Positions 20,303 through 63,734 of a stretch of 64,000 bases of DNA are shown here, piece after piece. The position numbers were made by a program, and so were the translations under genes. Each line of letters starts with the position of its first letter. Within the stretch, counting starts at the first letter, position 1. The notes under the pieces were generated by a model, which worked only from the letters and a program-made list of their open reading frames with translations, did not search any database and had not been told where the DNA came from. Source of the stretch: Zygnema cylindricum (taxonomy: Eukaryota; Streptophyta; Zygnematophyceae; Zygnematales; Zygnemataceae); assembly GCA_037447655.1 (NCBI GenBank), contig JBBHKE010001656.1, positions 126,001-190,000 on the forward strand, given 5' to 3'.

Positions 20303-20711
20303 ATGTTGGAGCCTCTCCCAGAGGTCATTCTCTGCCACGTGGAAGCGGTAGACGGATGGAATCCATATCTCATAGCATCCATGGCCAGCATGTCACATCA
20401 CAAAGCAGCCATGGCTTGCTGCCACGTGTGGCGCACTTATTGCTATTGGCGGTCAGCAGATGTCACACGGGAATTGATGGAGGAGGGAGAGAGGTCGGGA
20501 GGGGAGGGGGGGGAAGAGGGGAAGGAGGAGGGAGAGAGCTCTGGAGGAGAGGGAGGGAAAGAGGGGGAGGAGGGAGAGAGCTCTGGAGGAGAGGGAGGGG
20601 AAGAGGGGGAGGAGGAGGGAGAGAGCTCTGGAGGAGAGGGAGGGAAAGAGGGGGAGGAGGGAGAGATTTTTGAAAGTGACATTGTGAAGGAGACTCATAT
20701 GGAAAGACAGA

Positions 20712-20734
<23 letters not shown>
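20303..20734 (+). CDS. Candidate host gene, first exon: F-box-like start with Glu/Gly repeats
   Basis: A 143-residue frame. Its first 60 residues (LEPLPEVIL ... CCHVWRTYC) have the spacing of an F-box: a leading L-P-x-V-I-L and a later C-x-V-W-R like the usual VCKxWR. F-box proteins recruit substrates to SCF ubiquitin ligases. Residues 60-120 are an in-frame tandem repeat of about 15 residues ([14 protein letters not shown]), encoded by a purine-rich minisatellite. A CT-rich leader precedes the ATG. The frame then stops at TAA, but another frame continues through the GA microsatellite and appears to splice onward (see 20712-21247). The low-complexity part could inflate the frame by chance, so only the first 60 residues carry evidence. 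No homologue is recognised with certainty. Confidence 0.35.
20490..20670 (+). repeat. GGGAGGAGGGAGAGAGCTCTGGAGGAGA minisatellite
   Basis: About four tandem purine-rich units of 45-48 bp, each containing GAGAGAGCTCTGGAGGAGAG, located inside the candidate F-box-like frame. Confidence 0.8.
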
Positions 20735-21247
<513 letters not shown>

Positions 21248-22050: not shown

Positions 22051-23556
22051 GTATTTTGTTTTTCAATCAATTCTTCTATATTTTCTTTTCTTTCGTTCTT
22101 TTTTTGTCGTTGTTTTTTTTTTTTATATGATTTCATGTCCACATTCTTGCGTTTTTTGTTTTTAATGTATCTTCATTTCTTTGGCAAATTTTTTGCGGGC
22201 ATGTGTAAACATCTTGTTTTAAATTGTGTTTATTTGAAGTTTTTGATCTTGTTTGAACCTCACAATTATTCTTGTCTCTTTTCTATTTGTCCTCTCCCTC
22301 CACCCTTCCCTCTCTTTTGTCAATGAGTCCCGTTTGTTTTTCAACTTATTTCGCTTCTTTTGTTTCTTCGGTTCTTTTACAGTCTGTTGTCACCCATACC
22401 TTCTTGTGCAAGAAAACCCAAGAAATAGTTTTGCAACAAATAGATCTACTTTAATTTCAGTAAAATGCCACTTGGATCCGATTATTTCCACACCATTTTA
22501 GGCGTGTACTCTTTGTACCTGATATTCTCCACACTATTTTAAGTGTGTGCCGTTTCAACCAGATGATGTTCACTTTTTCTACACTATTTATGGTGTGGGC
22601 AGGTTTGGATCGTTTGCACACATAGAGAATTCACCCTTCTCTGCTTCAAAGTAAGGATTTTGAAGCATTTTACTTTCTTGTTCTTTTTTGTTTTGCGTTT
22701 TCATTTATTTTTGGGGGGAGTGGTGGCCTTGGAGTAGGAGATGTTCGTAGGAACTTTTGTTCAGGATGTTAAGATGTTGCTTTCATGTATTCCTTCATGT
22801 TTTCTACCCAAGGGTTTTTTTCTATTTTACTTTATTCTATTCAGAGTAATGTAGTGTAAAGAAATATTTTCAACATCTTATTCCTTCCTATGAAGCAAAT
22901 CCAAAATTAGTTAAACTATAGCACAATTCTTTGTTTTTAACCAAATGTTACCGTTTCATTTATAAAATTATAAATACATGAACATGACGTATTGTTTAAA
23001 CTAACCTATTTACGAAATTTTTGTGCACTGCGTTAAAACTTCTTTAGAAACTGCTAGTTTTATAAACCTTCTATGTCTCATTACAACCATCAAGTTATAC
23101 TACTGCAATGAGTATGAGCATGGATTTTGCAGGTCAAGGGAAACGAGTTATCTTCCTCTCCCTCTCCCTCTACCTCTCTATTTTTGTCCCTCTCTTTGTC
23201 TCTCTCTCTCTCTCTTTCCTTCTCTCACTTTTTCCTCTCCCATTTCATCCCTTTCACTTCCTTCCTAATAGATTGTTGATGAAACTTGAATATGGCCCAT
23301 AGTGTTAATAGATATTGTCGGGTTACACTTTTCATATCTTCGAAGGGAGTATAATATAAAACCATACGATAGGGACTTTGTCTATCTTTTCATTCCCAAT
23401 AACATTTTCATTTTAACATTCTCCAAGTATTTTCTGATACCAGTCTTTGTTTCCTATTTTTCGTTTGAGATCCGCCATTCCTCTATAAAGAGTTATCTCT
23501 TCGTTTAACATTCACCGGTGAGAGTTTTTATGTCATTGGTTTTGTTAGTTTGGGAA
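22051..23556. other. T-rich non-coding region
   Basis: About 1.5 kb, strongly T-rich on the + strand, compatible with intron or 3' flank of the candidate gene. It contains three loosely repeated CACAC(C/T)ATTTTA...GTGTG motifs (22488-22605) and a CT-rich tract (23152-23245). Frames here (for example beyond 22050 on +) are poly-Phe artefacts. Confidence 0.4.
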
Positions 23557-23777
23557 TGTTAAGATTCCTAGAATCGGGGGATAGAATGGACGATCCCAAT
23601 AAAGGGATTGATGAGCCGGCCAAGATTTGAACCTGGGCCCTTTCACTTAAGCTGCGAACACACTACCACTGTGCCACCAACTCGGATGTGATACTAGTGG
23701 GTCCATTTTTATATAGGTTTTAATGTGGATTTTACCACAATTCCGGATATCGAGCGCACGTTTCACGTATGTCAACA
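23557..23777 (-). repeat. 3' LTR of the TRIM-like element
   Basis: A 221-bp LTR starting TGTTGACATACG and ending TTAACA on the - strand. The matching part of the other LTR is 23844-24031. Confidence 0.8.
23613..23683 (-). other. Complete tRNA-like cloverleaf in the TRIM LTR
   Basis: 71 nt fold by hand as a class I tRNA. Acceptor stem GAGTTGG/CCGGCTC pairs over 7 bp (two G-U). D-arm GCAC/GTGT with loop AGTGGTA; anticodon arm TTCGC/GTGAA with loop AGCTTAA; a 5-nt variable loop; T-arm CCAGG/CTTGG with loop TTCAAAT. A-box and B-box are therefore present. The loop centre is CTT (Lys-type), but position 33 is G instead of the nearly invariant U, so it is unlikely to be a working tRNA. It has the same orientation as the LTR. 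Confidence 0.75.
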
Positions 23778-23843
23778 CCCCCCCTCGAGAGGTAGTCGGT
23801 CATAATTATCCATGTAAACCTAGTCCCCCTGGCTTTAATACCA

Positions 23844-24031
23844 TGTTAAGATTCCTAGAATCGGGGGATAGAATGGACGATCCCAATAAAGGGATTGATG
23901 AGCCGGCCAGGATTTGAACCAGGGACCTTTCACTTAAGCTGCAGACGCACTACCATTTCACTCAAGCTGCGAACGCACTACCACTATGCCACCAGCTCAG
24001 ATGTGATGCTGGTGGGTCCATTTTTATATAG
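23844..24031 (-). repeat. 5' LTR of the TRIM-like element, truncated
   Basis: Matches 23557-23737 over its inner part, then stops where the gypsy LTR begins. Confidence 0.8.
23900..23998 (-). other. tRNA-like sequence with a 28-nt internal duplication
   Basis: The second copy of the LTR cloverleaf. Acceptor GAGCTGG/CCGGCTC is kept, but a 28-nt segment covering D-loop to anticodon arm (TGGTAGTGCGT...GTGAAA) is present twice in tandem. This gives exactly 71 + 28 = 99 nt. Confidence 0.75.
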
Positions 24032-24532
24032 TGTAAAAGGGACAATAGCGCACCACAGCACGCCACAATGCACAACGGAAAACATCAAGGATCTTCCCGT
24101 AGCAACAGTAGGAGTACACAACACTGATAGACAAAGTTGCGCTTTATTACTTGGAAGAGAGTTCAAGGTTGCGCTCGCCGCGTAGGTCTACTCGAAGAGT
24201 GTCCTATCCACTAAGCCTACCTGACTATTTAAACTAGCTAGCTGCTAGTCACCTAGTACTGTACACGTGGACCTTCACGGTCAACCAAGAGAAATCCCCA
24301 AAATATCTTCTAGAACAATACCGTTCTATCTACATTCCGCGGCGTTGCTATACTGCTAAACTACGTTGCTCTGCTGCGCTGCTATGCTGCTAGGCCACTA
24401 AGTAACTATGCTGCTAAGTTGCTATACTGCTATGTTGCGCTGGTGTGGAATCGCAGTTGCGCTGCTCTAACATCGCAACCATAGCAGCCTAGTTGCTAAC
24501 TACTAAGTACCCAACTCTGTAACCCTGTTACA
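24032..24532 (-). repeat. 3' LTR of the gypsy element
   Basis: 501 bp; on the - strand from TGTAACAGGGTTACAG to CTTTTACA. The outer half contains tandem GCTGC-rich units (24350-24480). A 21-base stretch beginning ATCGCAGTTGCG at 24450 recurs in the family C copia LTR at 54087. Confidence 0.85.
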
Positions 24533-24575
24533 GTGCCTCCCACTAGGGCTTCAACGTCCCGCTGAACCTTTTGTC

Positions 24576-25854
24576 TCAGGAAAACTGCAACTGCCGGAAT
24601 ATACCGTACGTCTCTTCGCGGTACTCCTCAAATTTCTATCGCAGGGTGTCGAGTTGGTTTTGGAGCTGCTCACATCGCGTCTCCAGCAGCGCAATATGAT
24701 GGTCTGCCGCTGCCAAACGTCTCCGAATGATTCGCTCCCGCACTTGGTCCTCCCCCTCTTCCGGTACAGCCTCGGGACCCTCGGTTGCGGCGAAATGGCC
24801 GCCGGTGCAAGCTTCTCACATGCCGAAATTCGGGGCGATTCAGGTTCTGCAAGTTGTTGTGCCTCTTCCGCCTCCTCTTCAGCTGGTTCTCACCTAGGTA
24901 CCTTCCTTAGCTTGAAGGACGCATGTTTCCTGGCAGCTCGGGCCCGCTGCAGAGCGTTCTTTCTGGCCAGCTTGAGTGCCCGTACTTCGGGGGTGACCTC
25001 TGCCCGAGCAATTATGTTATGGAGGCTAACATCCCACGGGTGATATCGGCGAAGTAACCCAGAAACATCCACCCTGTACCGGTAGTTATCCTCAACTACT
25101 TCCACAAACAGTAGGACATGGGGGTTTAGCTGCACATAACCCTTGTGGTTGTTCCCGAGGTCCTTTGTTCTCATAAAATTCCAGGTCGGGTGTGACGGTA
25201 CGCTGGCGGGGATAAAGATAGGGTCCCTGGTTTTCCCGTACGCCACTCCTCGGGCCACTCCTTGGGATCCCAATACAAGCACTTCGCGAAGGTGAAGGCG
25301 AGATCCGGATGCTGTGTGTCGGCAGGAAGTGGGAAGAGGTAATCGGGAATTTCCTCTCCCTGTTCACTCTCCTCAGCCGTCTCCCTTTTGTTTTCTCGAA
25401 GGAGAAACACCTCGTCTCCACTAGGGTATTGTGCTTCCGCTTTCTTTTCCGCGCTTTCGGAGGACTGTTCGTCTGCGGTACTCTCCTTGTTGGGGTCTCT
25501 CGTCACCTCTAGATCCAAGGCGCGCTCCTCAATTGGCGGAGGCGTTGGTTCTCGTTCTGGTTCCTCCGCCTCCAAGAGCTCATGATCCTCCTTATAATCC
25601 TGGTCCCTTTCTCGGGTTGGGGTGTATTCGGGGTCTTGTGAGTTTTCCGACCCCTCCCCTCCACTGGTTTCTGCCGGCACTGCCTCGCTTTTGGCGGTTT
25701 CTTCTGGTTCCGGCTCCGCTTCTACCTCTCTTCTCCGGTCTGCCTCTACCATGGCCTCCGCCGCCATTAATAATCTCTGGGGACGGTTCACATCTCCTTG
25801 CCCCACTCGCACAAGCCTCCTCCTTTTCGGTGGTGGAGAGGACGACGACGCCAT
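24576..25854 (-). pseudogene. Accessory ORF after pol in the chromovirus
   Basis: Starts at ATG 25854-25852, on the element strand, after the chromodomain. Its N-terminus has a basic PPPKRRR nuclear-localisation-like motif. An acidic, Pro/Glu-rich segment of about 170 residues follows, then a compact block (FAKCLYWDPKEWPEEW, then after a frameshift near 25250 NNHKGYVQLNPHVLLFVEVV and GLLRRYHPWD), a basic helix (KLARKNALQRARAARK) and, after a TGA near 24889 and a second shift, a coiled-coil end (RERIIRRRLAAADHH ... LETRCEQLQNQLDTL). Total about 420 residues before decay. I recognise no family. It is open and in frame with pol upstream, so it may once have been expressed as a pol C-terminal extension or separately. 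Confidence 0.55.
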
Positions 25855-26349
25855 AGACACTGTTGTACAAGACAATTCCGGTAGTTCCAGAAGTGAAGGG
25901 AAAATTACCGCGCGGAGAGAAGCAATCTCTAAGCTGTCGGGACTCGGTTGGTCGCGAGGGCGGATGGCGACTTTATCAACAAGGGTTGAGGGTTTCACTT
26001 TTGGATTCTGCGAAGCGTCGCAACATGCAAGGGTATCGCAGCGTCCAACATTTAGGAGACTGCGCTCCTGCAGCGAAACCAAGGGTTCGTTGTTACCAAC
26101 GTGATGAAACACAATTGCGCTGTTGCGTTTTCCTGTCAGCGAAGCGGTGGTGCTGCGTTCATCTGACGGCACCATAACCAAGTTGCGTTGCGGTGGCTGC
26201 GCTGCTATAGCGCTGCGGTGCAGTAACATTGCCGTTGCTTTTCTTTGTCGCGTCCCCAATATAATTGCGATGGTTGCGACAATGCGATTCGTTCCTTTAT
26301 TGCGGCCGCTGCGATTGCCCCTCCGGCGAAGCTGAGTGTCTGCACTCTG
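25855..26349 (-). other. Open linker between chromodomain and accessory ORF
   Basis: About 165 codons without a stop in the pol frame, joining the chromodomain to the accessory ORF. It has low-complexity Ala/Arg-rich stretches encoded by GCTGC/GCAGC-type repeats (26180-26230), similar to the repeats in this element's LTRs. It could be expanded 3' untranslated sequence that happens to be open, or a real linker. Confidence 0.4.
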
Positions 26350-26505
26350 CTGAAACCGGCGCAACAACTCTGGGGAATGCAGATCCTCCTCGTCCACCCA
26401 AGAGTCATCCTCAGCACTGTAGCCCTTCCAACGCACCAAATATTGGCTGGAGTTGGAATTCTGAGAGCGGCGCGACTGAAGGATCTCCTCCACCTCATAC
26501 TCGTC
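26350..26505 (-). CDS. Chromodomain of the gypsy integrase
   Basis: Residues LDEYEVEEILQSRR ... YLVRWKGYSAEDDSW show the chromodomain pattern: YEVEEIL strand, an aromatic cage with YLVRWKGY, and the closing DDSW. Chromodomains on chromovirus integrases bind modified histone H3 and steer integration into heterochromatin. The segment is uninterrupted within the frame that runs from 27048 to 25171. Confidence 0.85.
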
Positions 26506-27700
26506 CAAGGTACTTCGAACGGGTGGTAAAAGAGTATTCTGTCGTCGATTAGGAAACATCGAATCAGGGTCGCAGAATAGTTTAAGGAGTGAAACATGGA
26601 AGACATGATGAATATGCCAGTCTTTCGGAATATCCAACTTATAAGCCACTTCGCCCACATGGGAGAGAATTGTGAATGGGCGCGTGAATTTCGGTGCCAA
26701 CTTCTTAGAGAGGGCACCCGGCAAGGAGAGGTTTGCCATATAAAGGCGAACCTTTTCCCCCACGCTAAAGACGACGTGCCTCCGGTAAGCGTCGCCCTGC
26801 GACTTTTGGCGATCCTTTGCTAACTGTAGCGCCATGGCCGCCTTTTCTAGGTTTTCTTTTAGCGTTTTGACAAAATCTTGAGATGTTGGCATATGGCAGT
26901 CCGCTACCAATAAGTTTTGGGGAAGAGTGAGCTGTCGTCCATTAAGGGAGAATGGCGTAGCATTTGTAGACGAGTGCACCGCATTGTTGTACGCCACCTC
27001 AATTGCTGTTAAATGGCCCACCCAATCCGTTTTGGTGTACCGAGACATAAGTTCGCAACGTCAATCGCTGTTAAATGGCCCACCCAAACCGTTTGGTGCA
27101 TCGAGATATAAGCTCGCAACACTTCCTCAGAGTTGGATTCACCCTTTTAGTTTGACCATTATTTTGAGGGTGGTAAGCTGTGGACATGGCCAACTGCGTG
27201 CCACATAGCGCAAATAGATTTCGCCAAAAGTGGCTTACGAATTTGCGATCGCGGTCGCTGACGATCCTCTTCGGAAGTCCTTGATGGCGGAATATCTCCC
27301 GAAAGAATAATTCCGCGATATCTCGCGCTATGCCTGTGGTGGACGTAGGTAGGAAATGGGCCATTTTCGTCAAATAATCCACGACAACGAAGATTGAGTC
27401 CTAGCTCTCCTTAGTCAGCGGAAGGGCTTTAATGAAATCCATCAAAATCGCCTCCCAAAGAACAGATGGTGTGGGAAGGGGTTGTAACAGGCCTTGTTGT
27501 TGTGAATCCGATTTGTTCTTATTACAGGAGTCACACGTCTGGACATATTCCGCAATGTCGCGAGTCATGTTCAGCCCAAAGTGTTTTATCCCGCCCAAAG
27601 TGTCCGCTGAGCGGCTAGTCGTGGCTCAGTTTAAGAATCGCGTGACGTAACTCCGTATTTGTCGGAACATAAAGTCGTGTTGTTTTACTCGGTCTATACC
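26506..27700 (-). pseudogene. Integrase of the gypsy element
   Basis: The zinc-binding region keeps only the CxxC part (CDSCNKNK, about 27530). The core has MDFI, VSDRDRKFVSHFW and HPQNNGQTKRVN. The usual catalytic Glu in the DGQTERVN motif is Lys here, so the active site is lost. A stop lies near 27403, and a 62-bp tandem duplication (26999-27060 and 27061-27121) shifts the frame. The C-terminal part (IEVAYNNAVHSSTNATPF ... HHVFHVSLLK) is well preserved and leads into the chromodomain. Confidence 0.85.
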
Positions 27701-28064
27701 GCCACATACCATTGACGGTTCGGATTAGTACCTTCCATTTACTGAGTTCATTCTGTAGGTCATCGGCGTCATAGGCGGCCGTTATCCTACTTAATCACTG
27801 TTCGTCCACTTGCATCGTACTAATGACTGCGTTGAGTTTCGGGTCTTGCGCTGCGATCACCGCTACAGTGTTCTCTTTCACCGAGCTTACGTTTACATGT
27901 TGCGATGCTTGCGGTCGTTACTTCGCTACGGGCGCAGCGACCCCGGGTTTTCTTGACAGCGCATCCGCCGGGTTCGTCTTGGCCGGTTTATACTCGATGA
28001 TCAGTTCCGGTCCGAAGGTATGAAGAAACGTCATCCATCGCACTTGTTTCTTGGACAACTTCGG

Positions 28065-29590
28065 CTATGTTTGTAGGTACTGTAGGGCGTGGTGATCGGT
28101 GATAACCGTGATCCGCTTCCCCTGAACGTAACACTTCCAAACCTCCAGCGCATTGATGATAGTGATTGTCTCCTTCTCATGGGTGGCCCAGTTAAGCTCC
28201 GCTGCCTTTAGTTTTCGACTGTCGTAGGCAATGGGTTGAAGGCCTTTTCGTTGATCTTGCATAAGGATAGCTCCAATAGCCGTATCGCTCACGTTGGTGA
28301 TTACGTCCAAGGTAAGTCCGGGTTGGGAACAGCTAACACAGGGGCGGTAACCAACCGCTCCTTTAGCGTGTTAAAGGCTGCCCTTTGCGCCGATTTCCAA
28401 TTATAGGGCACGTCATTCTTGAGTACCTCCGTGAGTGGTGCAGCGATTTTTGCAAACCCTTAACAAAACGTCGATAGTAGGAGCATAATCCTAGAAAGCT
28501 CCGTAATTCCGTAATATTCGCCGGCTGTGGCCACTCCTTTACTGCCCTTTTTTTGTTCGGATCAACTGGGATTCCGTCCCGACTCACCACATGGCCCAGA
28601 AAATCAATTTTCTCCTTGAAGAAGTCACATTTGCTTCTCTTTGCGTACAACTTATTTTCCCGAAGGACTTGTAGGACCGTCCGTAGATGCTTTACATAAT
28701 CATCCAGCGTTCGACTATACACCAAGATGTCGTCTAGAAAGACGATTACAAACGCGTCCAGATATTGCTGAAAGATGGAATTCATTAAATGCATAAAAGT
28801 TGCCGGTGCGTTAGTCAACCCGAACGGCATTACCCGAAACTGGAAATGACCATACCGAGTTCTAAACGCCGTCTTTTCCACATCTTCCTCGGCAATTCTA
28901 ATCTAGTGGTAGCCGCTCCGTAAGTCTATCTTCGAAAAATAATTAGCACCTCGAAGTCGATCCAATAATTCGTCTATCCTCGGTAAAGGGTATGCATTCT
29001 TCACTGTTAGTTTTTTTAGCGCTCGGTAGTCTATACACATACGGAAACCTCCATCTTTCTTGTATACGAAGAGGATGGTGGCTCCATATGGTGACTTACT
29101 TAATTTCGATTGCTCCAGCTTCGACCAACTCTGCGAGTTACTTTTTGAGTTCGTCCAACTCAATGTAACTCATCTTGTACATCCGATTAGCCGGGGGTAC
29201 CGCTCCGGGAACAAGCTCTATCTTATGGTCTACTTCGCGCTTCGGAGGTAGTCCTTCGGGTAGCTTCGGGGGAAATACATCTGCGTACTACTCGAGAAGT
29301 TTTGTCACGACTTCCGGGGCCTTTTCCGAAGTCTTTCTAGTGTCGTCACTTTCTTTGGAGTTGAAGTCGGGGTCCTTTTTCTTCCATTCTCCTGGGATCT
29401 CCTCCTTCCCCTCCTCCATTGGTTGGACGACCGCCATACCAATAGTTTCCCCTTTCTTGAGTGCCCTCTTAAGCTGTAAGGCCGAAAGTAGGCTTCCCTC
29501 TTTAGCTCCCTTACCAGCCGCTCGCGCTTTTACCTCAAACTCTTCTTCACCTTTCTTCACTCTCATATCACCACTTCGCCAATCGATCAT
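28065..29590 (-). pseudogene. Reverse transcriptase and RNase H of the gypsy element
   Basis: RT motifs in order: [51 protein letters not shown], then a TAG at the conserved Gln codon of GYHQIRI (28905-28903), then [17 protein letters not shown] and the active site FLDDILVYS. The connection domain and RNase H follow (TDTAIGAIL-type strand read here as SDTAIGAILMQ; YDSRKLKAAELNW; ITDHHALQYL). It synthesises DNA from the element RNA and removes the RNA strand. Frameshifts near 28380-28310 and 29170 and stops make it non-functional. Confidence 0.88.
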
Positions 29591-29671
29591 CCGATTCCAT
29601 TTTTAAAGCCACGGTTTTCCCAGGATTACTTCATGGTCCCCAAGAGGTATTACATGAATCGTTTCATACAA

Positions 29672-30860
29672 TCAGAATTTCCCAATTCCGACGCATAACC
29701 TCGGAGTACAATGGGTAATCGATAAGGAACTTCCGTCGGCCAATTGTACCGAATGATGATCCTTTAGTACTACGAGAGGAAGTTTCAACCTTTTCACCGT
29801 CCCCTCGTTGATGAAGTTCCCCGATGCTCCGGAGTCCACCATGAAGTTAGTTGCGTTCAATCTGATTTGACCCCGAAATATCAAAGGGTCTCCTCCTTCT
29901 GCGGCTAACCTCATAACATTAAGTTTTCCCTTTTTGGGACCTTTCCGTTTTGGACATTCTCGAGCCATATGATCTTGGGAACCACATTGGAAGCATAGGC
30001 CATTTTGCCTCCTCGGTTGAAGCTCCTCGGGGGATAAGTCATTGGTCTTGGTCTTGGTAGATTTCTTCTTTCTCCGCAAGACGTTGACCACTTTCTTATC
30101 CTCGTCAAGTGCTCCGAGATCCATGGGGGTTGGACCATCGTCTCGTCGGCTTCCTCCACCGCTGCTTGACCCATAATGATAAGGTCTCCGGAGGTTGAAG
30201 TCGAACGAATCGGTCCGCTCTGCAAATTGGATGATTGCCGAGAGGCAAGGAGTCGTGCTTTCCCGAGGAAGCCATTGTTCCACATCCCTACGAATAGAGG
30301 ATTCAAGCCCCTTCACGTAGCGATCCACGGCTTCATCCTCCGTCATCATGGGTATTTGAACTTTGCACTCCAAGAACCGCTGCGTAAACTCCAACACTGA
30401 GGTTCGTTGCTTCAGCACTGCGATCTTATCTCTTGCCGCCTTCACCGTATTGACGGGCTGCCAAGCGTCATGGAGGAATTGAATGAAGAGAGCCCAAATG
30501 GTCGGTACCTCATCATTCTCCACCATTTTCCTCCACCATGCTCCCGCTGCCCCTTTAAGAAAACCACGCGCATAGTGAATATTCTCATGATCCGATAGTC
30601 TAGGAAAAATCTCGAGATAGTTCGCAATGGAGAATAGCCATGTGTCAAGGTTCTTGTGTCTTGCAGGGTCAAACTCGTCAGGAAGTCTCAATTTCGGTCT
30701 TCGAAGTCTCTCTCTATGCCTCCATGAGAACGCTCCCTAAGACGAGAATCCAAGGCCGCGAGGGTGTTACTCAACTTTGCGTTCTGTAATGTAACGCTTT
30801 CTAACTCCCTGAGAACTTGCGCTAACATTTCTGTAGTAGATACGCCGTGTTTGTCCATGC
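29672..30860 (-). pseudogene. gag: gag and protease of the gypsy element
   Basis: The probable start ATG at 30860 (MDKHGVSTTEML...) opens a coiled-coil-like N-terminus. A one-base shift near 30700 moves into the long 339-residue frame from 30691: RLPDEFDPARH ... AAGAWWRKM (capsid), CFQCGSQDHMARECP (CCHC zinc knuckle, near 30000) and MVDSGASGNFI (aspartic protease, near 29840). Capsid and nucleocapsid package the RNA; the protease cleaves the polyprotein. The frame is otherwise uninterrupted, the best preserved part of this element. Confidence 0.85.
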
Positions 30861-30879
30861 TGTCGAGTCACGAGAAATA

Positions 30880-30891
30880 GCTCCGATACCA
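30880..30891 (-). promoter_or_regulatory. Primer-binding site of the gypsy element
   Basis: TGGTATCGGAGC, one base after the LTR, complementary to the CCA end of plant initiator tRNA-Met with one mismatch. Confidence 0.8.
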
Positions 30892-30892
30892 G

Positions 30893-31435
30893 TGTAAAAG
30901 CTACCGCTAGATGAAACGGCTAAGGCTACCGGCTACATTGTGTCTGCCGGCCGGCAGGTACAAGGATCAAATCCTGCCGCCGGCACATACATTTTAATTA
31001 AATATATAAACCCTAATATAAAATTCCTGTAAACCTCAGGATAGCCAAGGTAGCCATGGCTCTAGCTTCCTCTCAAATTTCTCAGTGACTGCGACAAGTT
31101 TGAGAGTTGGAGAGAGAAGTTAGAGATAGACTGCCTCGACTTCTATATTTCTTTTCAGACCTAGAAAATACTAATAAAACCATTAGTTTCTACAAAACCC
31201 CCAAAATATCTTCTAAAACAATACCATTCTATCTACATTTCGCACGGTTTCTATACTGCTTAGCTGCGTTGCTATGTTGCTTGCTATGCTGCTACGCCAC
31301 TAAGTAGCTATGTTGCTAAGCTGCTATACTACTATGTTGCGCTGGTCTCGAATCGCGGCTGCGCTGCTCTCACATCGCAACCATAGCAGCCTAGTTGCTA
31401 ACTACTAAGTACCCACACTCTGTAATCCTGTTACA
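30893..31435 (-). repeat. Chimeric 5' LTR of the gypsy element
   Basis: The outer part (about 31195-31435) aligns with the 3' LTR, including the GCTGC repeats and GATATTTTGGGG. The inner part (about 30901-31192) is instead the first ~290 bp of a family A copia LTR (TGTAGAAACTAATGG ... tRNA-like module 30910-30990), in the same orientation. The last bases (CTTTTACA, 30900-30893) are gypsy again, directly next to the gypsy PBS. Confidence 0.75.
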
Positions 31436-62154: not shown

Positions 62155-62801
62155 TGTTGTCTTTTGGAAAGCTCTCAGTCTCAGAGCAGCGCAGCAGCGC
62201 AGCAACTATACAGACAGCAGCGCAGCTGCTATACAGCAGAGCTGCGCAGCAGCGCAGCAGCAGAGCAGCGCAGCAGCGAAGCTGCGATACTGACAGGACA
62301 AACGCATTTGCGGTCACTTTGGATAAGATCCGTACAGACTACGCAGCTGCTACTATCTTGGATATGATTTGGTGCAGGACACAGCAGCCGCGGGTGATAT
62401 AAATGTGATCCGGTACGGGACAACGCAGCTGCGATTAATATGAATCTGGTCAACGGACGAGATTCATAAGAGTATCACAAGTGACTTAGCCGACAAGTAT
62501 TTGTACAGTAACATAATATAGATTCTGAGTAATATTGACTGTACAATGATAGATTGGGTTGGCACGATCAAGAACACGTAGATCTCAGTAGGTGGGTTGA
62601 TTCTGGACGTACCTCTCAGGTACACTGTTATCAGCGGTAGAACACCGAAAGTATAAGACTTAGGACTTAGAGCATTTTTATGCATCCAGACTTCCAAGTA
62701 GTAAAACTGCAGACAGTTTTTGGGAAACTTCTGAGTATTATATCATGAGTGTTGTTGGGTCAATTGTGCTGAAACTTTGGGAGTTGTCAGTGTTTATGTT
62801 A
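62155..62801 (+). repeat. 3' LTR of the family B element, truncated
   Basis: Matches 57064-57726, then jumps into GTGGAAAATTTTGGC, the coiled-coil gene. A GCTGC-rich tract also lies just before it (62065-62130). Confidence 0.85.
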
Positions 62802-63734
62802 GTGGAAAATTTTGGCACAAAATTAGAAACGTGTATTGCGAAGCATGACAAAAGGCTCACGACAACACAACGCCAACTTGAAAAAGGATTATCAAGGATT
62901 GAGACAATGTTTTTAGGCTTGACACAACGTTCTATGCAACCATTTTCCTTTTCTTCACAACCATCTTTTTCCCCTCCCCCTTGTCCTACTCCTCACCCTC
63001 CTCCTCCCTCTTCATCTACAAATCCACCACCTTTTTCATTTCCCCCTTTTGCACCCATGTCTTCTTCCCAACCAACACCTTCTTTTTCTCAACATCATAC
63101 ATTTACTAGTGTCCCTTTCCACCCTATTCATTCCACAACATCTCCTTCCCACCTCTCTACATCTACCGATGCCTCTCTCCCCCCTATTTATTCCACAACC
63201 TCTCCTTCCCACCATTCTACATCTACCGATGCCTATTTTCCCCTTATCCATTCCACAACATCTCCTTCTCAAACTTTTAATTCTACCGATGCCTCTCTCC
63301 CCCCTATTCATTCCACGACCTCTCTTTCCCACCATTCTACATCTACCCATGCCTCTATCCCCCCTATCCATTCCACAACATCTCCTTCTCAAACTTTTAC
63401 TTCTACCAATGCCTCTCTTCCCCCTATTCATTCCACGACCTCTCCTTCCCACCATTCTACATCTACCCATGCCTCTATCCCCCCCATCTATTCCACAACA
63501 TCTCCTTCTCAAACTTTTACTTATACCAATGCCTCTCTTCCCCCTATTCATTCCACATTAATTCTTACCCCAACTTATGTCAAACTTGATACATTTCCTA
63601 TAGATTGGGCGAATTGGCAAGGATACACCCTACAGAGCCACGAGTGTGATGTCAAGGTGGAATCTATATTCAACGAGTACCATTATGGGTTGAATGGCCA
63701 CCCTCCTATAAAGTTGTTATACTCACAAACATGA
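62745..63734 (+). CDS. Chimeric LTR / coiled-coil / 20-residue-repeat ORF
   Basis: A 329-residue frame. The first ~19 residues (MSVVGSIVLKLWELSVFML) come from the family B LTR. Then VENFGTKLETC begins the same coiled-coil segment seen at 56884. A Pro/Ser-rich part (PCPTPHPPPPSSS) leads into seven tandem 20-residue units (PIHSTTSPSHHSTSTDASLP-like), encoded by 60-bp repeats (63121-63560). A unique C-terminus (YVKLDTFPIDWANWQGY ... IKLLYSQT) follows. The original gene start is probably not the LTR ATG. The frame is open throughout despite the repeats, which argues for past selection. No family recognised. Confidence 0.45.
   Translation: MSVVGSIVLKLWELSVFMLVENFGTKLETCIAKHDKRLTTTQRQLEKGLSRIETMFLGLTQRSMQPFSFSSQPSFSPPPCPTPHPPPPSSSTNPPPFSFPPFAPMSSSQPTPSFSQHHTFTSVPFHPIHSTTSPSHLSTSTDASLPPIYSTTSPSHHSTSTDAYFPLIHSTTSPSQTFNSTDASLPPIHSTTSLSHHSTSTHASIPPIHSTTSPSQTFTSTNASLPPIHSTTSPSHHSTSTHASIPPIYSTTSPSQTFTYTNASLPPIHSTLILTPTYVKLDTFPIDWANWQGYTLQSHECDVKVESIFNEYHYGLNGHPPIKLLYSQT
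63121..63560 (+). repeat. 60-bp coding tandem repeat, about seven units
   Basis: Units of exactly 60 bp (ATTCATTCCACAACATCTCC...) with an alternating two-unit pattern (SHHSTST / SQTFTST), giving a 120-bp higher-order period. Confidence 0.9.

Follow-up and report, generated by a model that had tools for sequence, protein, structure and literature searches.

A short non-coding LTR element in the window (the whole stretch of Zygnema cylindricum DNA analysed here, 64 kb in length) carries a tRNA-like sequence in both of its LTRs. Judged by the anatomy of this one 5′-truncated copy, whose box A departs from the usual form by one letter, the element is probably a new member of Helenus, the tRNA-bearing TRIMs named by Kojima (2024, PMC10886601). 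The reading favored here, with a probability of roughly 0.6, is that of a Helenus-type TRIM that would be mobilized in trans and whose tRNA-like module would serve as an internal promoter and set the start of the RNA at the tRNA-like +1. The role of the module is likely that of a Pol III-type promoter, with Pol III presumably beginning transcription at that base.

The sense strand of the element is the − strand, on which all of its parts are read, and the LTR pair is defined by mutual alignment. The 3′ LTR (23557–23777, −) is 221 nt long and runs from TGTTGACA to TCTTAACA. Directly before it, a polypurine tract (PPT), GAGGGGGGG, can be read from the sequence at 23778–23786 (−); a comparable PPT, GAGGGGGAG, is described for two Jatropha Copia families (PMC3852365). 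The internal region (23778–23843, −) comprises 66 nt and is non-coding by size. It includes a tRNA-Met-type primer-binding site (PBS), TGGTATTAAAGCCAGG (23828–23843, −), which touches the 5′ LTR. This PBS is two letters off the plant tRNA-Met PBS, TGGTATCAGAGCC (PMC3852365, PMC7215508), with both differences within the first 13 letters, and nine Jatropha Copia families are reported to use the PBS TGGTATCAGAGC, complementary to tRNA-Met (PMC3852365). The 5′ LTR is represented by its 3′ part only (23844–24031, −; 188 nt by alignment, counting a duplication of 28 nt). A Gypsy LTR that starts at 24032 truncates it at 24031, and the 61 nt that it lacks at its start were not found elsewhere in the 64-kb window. 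The visible element therefore amounts to 475 nt with two LTRs, a PBS and a PPT, which is the layout of a TRIM. There is no second such element in the window, where the best other match spans 33 nt at 82% (E 0.031). Exact-pattern scans of the viral_contigs and genome_contigs collections gave 0 matches, a result of little weight because these collections are viral and prokaryotic.

The Gypsy LTR that cuts the element belongs to a Gypsy-like element (24032–31435, −) with an ORF at 25171–27048, whose relatives have a chromodomain (PF00385); identity in the Gypsy part is at most 43% among 27 protein matches. Its left LTR (24032–24532) has the ends TG...CA, and its right LTR is a mosaic, in which 31195–31435 matches the left LTR at 89% and 30901–31194 matches sequence that adjoins Copia copies at other places in the window. 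The flanks of this Gypsy-like element, TATAG and CAAGG, do not match. Between 2359 and 50000 lie several nested, partly inverted Copia copies, with most long repeat pairs 80–95% alike. The Copia integrase part shows 31–40% identity among the best 120 of 1053 protein matches, and the named relatives among the matches listed include Phytophthora (the top match), three moth or mosquito names, Prunus and Trifolium. For the Copia RT part, identity is at most 47% among the best 120 of 5619 protein matches, and the named relatives among those listed are mostly seed plants, together with one oomycete and one gammaproteobacterial MAG label. The window also contains a long GA-rich low-complexity tract (20692–20989) and, inside an ORF at 62745–63734, a repeat of 60 nt (63021–63616), read in seven registers that overlap, that codes for a Ser/Thr/Pro-rich stretch.

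The presence of a tRNA-shaped sequence in sense orientation within the LTR had been proposed in the initial annotation, and it is confirmed by ARAGORN, by Rfam and by base pairing. In the 3′ LTR the tRNA-like sequence occupies 23612–23683 (−) and forms a complete cloverleaf with CTT at the anticodon position; the locus first given, 23613–23683 (−), stands, but the tRNA-like sequence is one base longer. This is the sole ARAGORN tRNA in the 64-kb window, called as tRNA-Lys(CTT). It is also the sole Rfam match at gathering score when the whole window is compared with 4227 families (RF00005, 46.9 bits against a gathering cut-off of 29 bits, E 7.2e-7). When the Rfam structure is imposed on this copy, 21 of 21 cloverleaf pairs are standard, five of them G-U, and all four stems proposed earlier are present.

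The copy in the 5′ LTR (23899–23998, −) is recognized by its alignment to the first; it receives no tRNA call from ARAGORN, nor from Rfam at E up to 10. The earlier description, in which both LTRs of a TRIM-like element contain a tRNA-shaped module, holds, as does the 28-nt tandem duplication reported in the second copy, which is real because the repeat offset between the LTRs is 287 on one side of it and 315 on the other. The duplicated segment runs from the D arm to the anticodon. Over 28 positions, its two halves show 4 differences from each other and 3 each from the first copy, and its exact break is uncertain because MAFFT placed the gap differently in two alignments. Since the duplication is found in one LTR only, it would have arisen after the last replication cycle or through template switching during that cycle.

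At the best breakpoint, the two LTRs differ at 9 of 160 columns (10–12 with several other breakpoints). These differences are distributed as 6/72 in the tRNA-like part, 0/55 in the downstream flank and 3/33 upstream, so that between these LTRs the module does not decay more slowly than its flanks, an outcome that the initial annotation had named as one that would refute its reading. Five differences fall in stems; four of these are T/C changes opposite G, where pairing is kept automatically, and the remaining one, an A/T change at position 50, disrupts a pair of the second copy. A comparison of the two LTRs within a single insertion has little to say on selection at the level of the family.

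Sequence patterns of an internal promoter are found in the module. The general box-A pattern is TRGYNNANNNG, which the box A of the module fits. Each LTR matches the patterns for box A (TGGCACAGTGG / TGGCATAGTGG) and for box B (GGTTCAAATC), as had been claimed for the first copy. The box-B pattern occurs at these two places only on both strands of the 64-kb window. The box-A pattern is loose: it has 129 matches over the two strands of the window and is thus no evidence on its own.

Upstream of the module, each LTR contains the motif TATATAAA, at 23708–23715 (−) in the 3′ LTR and at 24023–24030 (−) in the 5′ LTR, 32 nt before the tRNA-like +1 as counted from the first T. Over both strands of the window the motif has nine occurrences, including these two. 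The chance that it starts in a given 7-nt slot is 0.0005, or 0.0035 for the looser TATAWAW, figures that refer to a motif noticed before the test and to two LTRs copied from one template. About 22–32% of tRNA genes in angiosperms are reported to have an upstream TATA motif, a feature linked to the efficiency of Pol III, while the removal of such motifs from plant tRNA-Leu genes is described as having little effect; a CAA motif within the upstream 50 nt is reported at 78–82% of angiosperm tRNA genes (PMC11700998). The CAA motif is absent from the 50 nt upstream of both tRNA-like copies.

On the sense strand there is no TTTT in the 475 nt of the element, and the first is reached after 195 nt of downstream flank, at 23361; the antisense strand of the element has four T-runs. 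Depletion of TTTT was considered as proof of Pol III use and rejected as weak, because 33% of 2000 dinucleotide shuffles of the element also lack TTTT. Across 2541 windows of 475 nt on the + strand, 106 are without TTTT and 160 without AAAA.

In the favored reading, the module would most likely go back to a tRNA gene or a tRNA-derived SINE that entered an ancestral LTR. Through boxes A and B it would provide an internal promoter, either still in this copy or formerly in its parent copy. The genomic RNA would start at the tRNA-like +1, in which case R would begin with the tRNA-like sequence. The ordinary LTR route would come next, in which a tRNA-Met-type primer is used at the PBS, strands are transferred through R and the second strand is primed at the PPT, and the protein-less element would be moved by the enzymes of an autonomous helper element. 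Counted for the promoter reading are the tRNA calls, the module and its boxes in both LTRs, the TATA motif at −32, the lack of TTTT on the sense strand, the placement of PBS and PPT together with the plant precedent for the PBS, and the Helenus-like anatomy. Counted against it are the single 5′-truncated element, the missing CAA motif, the weak TTTT signal, the looseness of box A and its form TGGCA, a cloverleaf not favored by energy, a module no better kept than its flanks, and a TATA motif that fits Pol II equally well.

Transcription by Pol II starts about 30 nt from a TATA box, and with TATATAAA at −32 in each LTR the element could also be transcribed by Pol II, or by both polymerases. The less probable but best-surviving alternative is that the element is an ordinary Pol II TRIM, in which an inserted tRNA gene or SINE is a passenger forming the 5′ part of R and TATATAAA drives Pol II. 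The Pol II-like distance of this motif from the +1, the lack of a CAA motif and of a close poly-T terminator, and a module no better kept between the LTRs than its flanks are all consistent with a passenger. Against this, box B is found in both copies, all stems of the first copy are intact, the distance from the TATA motif singles out precisely the tRNA-like +1, and Helenus families elsewhere are described as keeping boxes A and B (PMC10886601). The two polymerases are not mutually exclusive, since both starts would fall at about the same base. It is conceivable, if somewhat more doubtful than a passenger, that the LTR is a dual promoter combining a TATA box, usable by TBP for Pol II, with a tRNA-type Pol III promoter at a common start base; the element would then link “TRIMp2” with “TRIMp3” and represent a new Helenus lineage in plants. 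With its arrangement of TATA plus tRNA, the element could serve to test which of the two polymerases is used.

It is unlikely that the tRNA-like fold itself is what matters, whether for packaging, RNA stability or the start of reverse transcription (5′-end tRNA mimicry). Were the RNA to start at +1, the module would lie at its very 5′ end, as such a role would have it. However, energy folding of the first copy prefers another structure (minimum −23.7 kcal/mol, cloverleaf −19.3), and the second copy is broken by the duplication; its cloverleaf is not the minimum either, and 174 of 200 shuffles are at least as stable (z +1.04). Nor is there complementarity to the PBS beyond TGGT, and Helenus is likewise described as having no complementarity between module and PBS (PMC10886601). 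Priming by the module, which the initial annotation had entertained, is not supported. Self-priming was rejected because the reverse complement of the module's 3′ end plus CCA (TGGTGAGCC...) shares with the PBS (TGGTATTAAAGCC...) only the TGGT.

The ARAGORN call of tRNA-Lys(CTT) might suggest a genuine cellular tRNA gene that was duplicated by chance together with its flanks, but this is very improbable. To our knowledge, U33 is near-universal in functional tRNAs. The anticodon loop of the first copy is AGCUUAA, which places G at position 33, as noted earlier with the same conclusion against decoding, and neither the element nor the first 195 nt after it contains TTTT as a terminator. The module, moreover, sits between LTR ends with a PBS and a PPT. 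Together, G33, the lack of a nearby T-run and the lack of a PBS match argue against a decoding tRNA or a self-primer, and the conclusion that the module is not a decoding tRNA is supported. Copies of tRNA-Lys in transposons have reportedly been seen in surveys of wheat chromosomes, and the Helenus-type reading explains the spurious tRNA-Lys call. Finally, chance resemblance to a tRNA could appeal to the weak folding z-score of the first copy (−1.22, with 24 of 200 shuffles at least as stable), but the tRNA claim is based on the covariance-model score and not on folding energy, and a comparison of the whole window with 4227 families that gave an E of 7e-7, together with an ARAGORN call at the same place, makes chance the least credible explanation of all.

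Several known systems share parts of this organization. A tRNA-derived SINE similarly has a tRNA-derived Pol III promoter head (PMC10886601), but the Zygnema element has LTRs, a PBS and a PPT, and would move by integrase and not by target-primed reverse transcription. Canonical TRIM/SMART elements (“TRIMp2”) resemble it in size and in the LTR-PBS-PPT-LTR layout, but no small-RNA gene is described in their LTRs in the account of PMC10886601. Cassandra, to which the initial annotation had drawn an analogy, does have a small-RNA-gene module in its LTR, and that comparison is supported; its PBS is given as TGGTATCAGAGC, two letters from that of the Zygnema element (PMC7215508). The module of Cassandra, however, is 5S rRNA, for which the Zygnema element gives no Rfam match at E up to 10, its own module being tRNA-like and without a poly-T run on the sense strand.

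The closest system is Helenus, and the earlier statement that no described family is like this element was mistaken. Kojima grouped Helenus with Cassandra as “TRIMp3”, and proposed that the module came from a SINE inserted into the LTR and serves as a Pol III promoter, a role stated there to lack experimental validation (PMC10886601). The hosts described there are fungi, animals and one plant, Selaginella moellendorffii, and fungal and plant Helenus are reported to have a 5-bp target-site duplication. In Helenus-1_SMo the LTR is 120 nt and the internal region 85 nt, compared to 221 and 66 in the Zygnema element. Box A of Helenus is TRGCY and YGG in most families, from which the TGGCA...TGG of the Zygnema element is one letter off, whereas box B, GGTTC, matches. 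The Zygnema element has TATATAAA at −32, and a TATA box is not mentioned in the main text of PMC10886601. The general idea of tRNA-bearing TRIMs is thus already in print, and, if the host is a plant, as mainly the PBS suggests, the Zygnema element would add a Helenus-type element where PMC10886601 describes one plant family. In both, each LTR of a short non-coding element with a PBS and a PPT carries a tRNA-like sequence that includes a box A and a box B, and that sequence is (in Helenus mostly, according to the same source) neither a decoding tRNA nor a primer.
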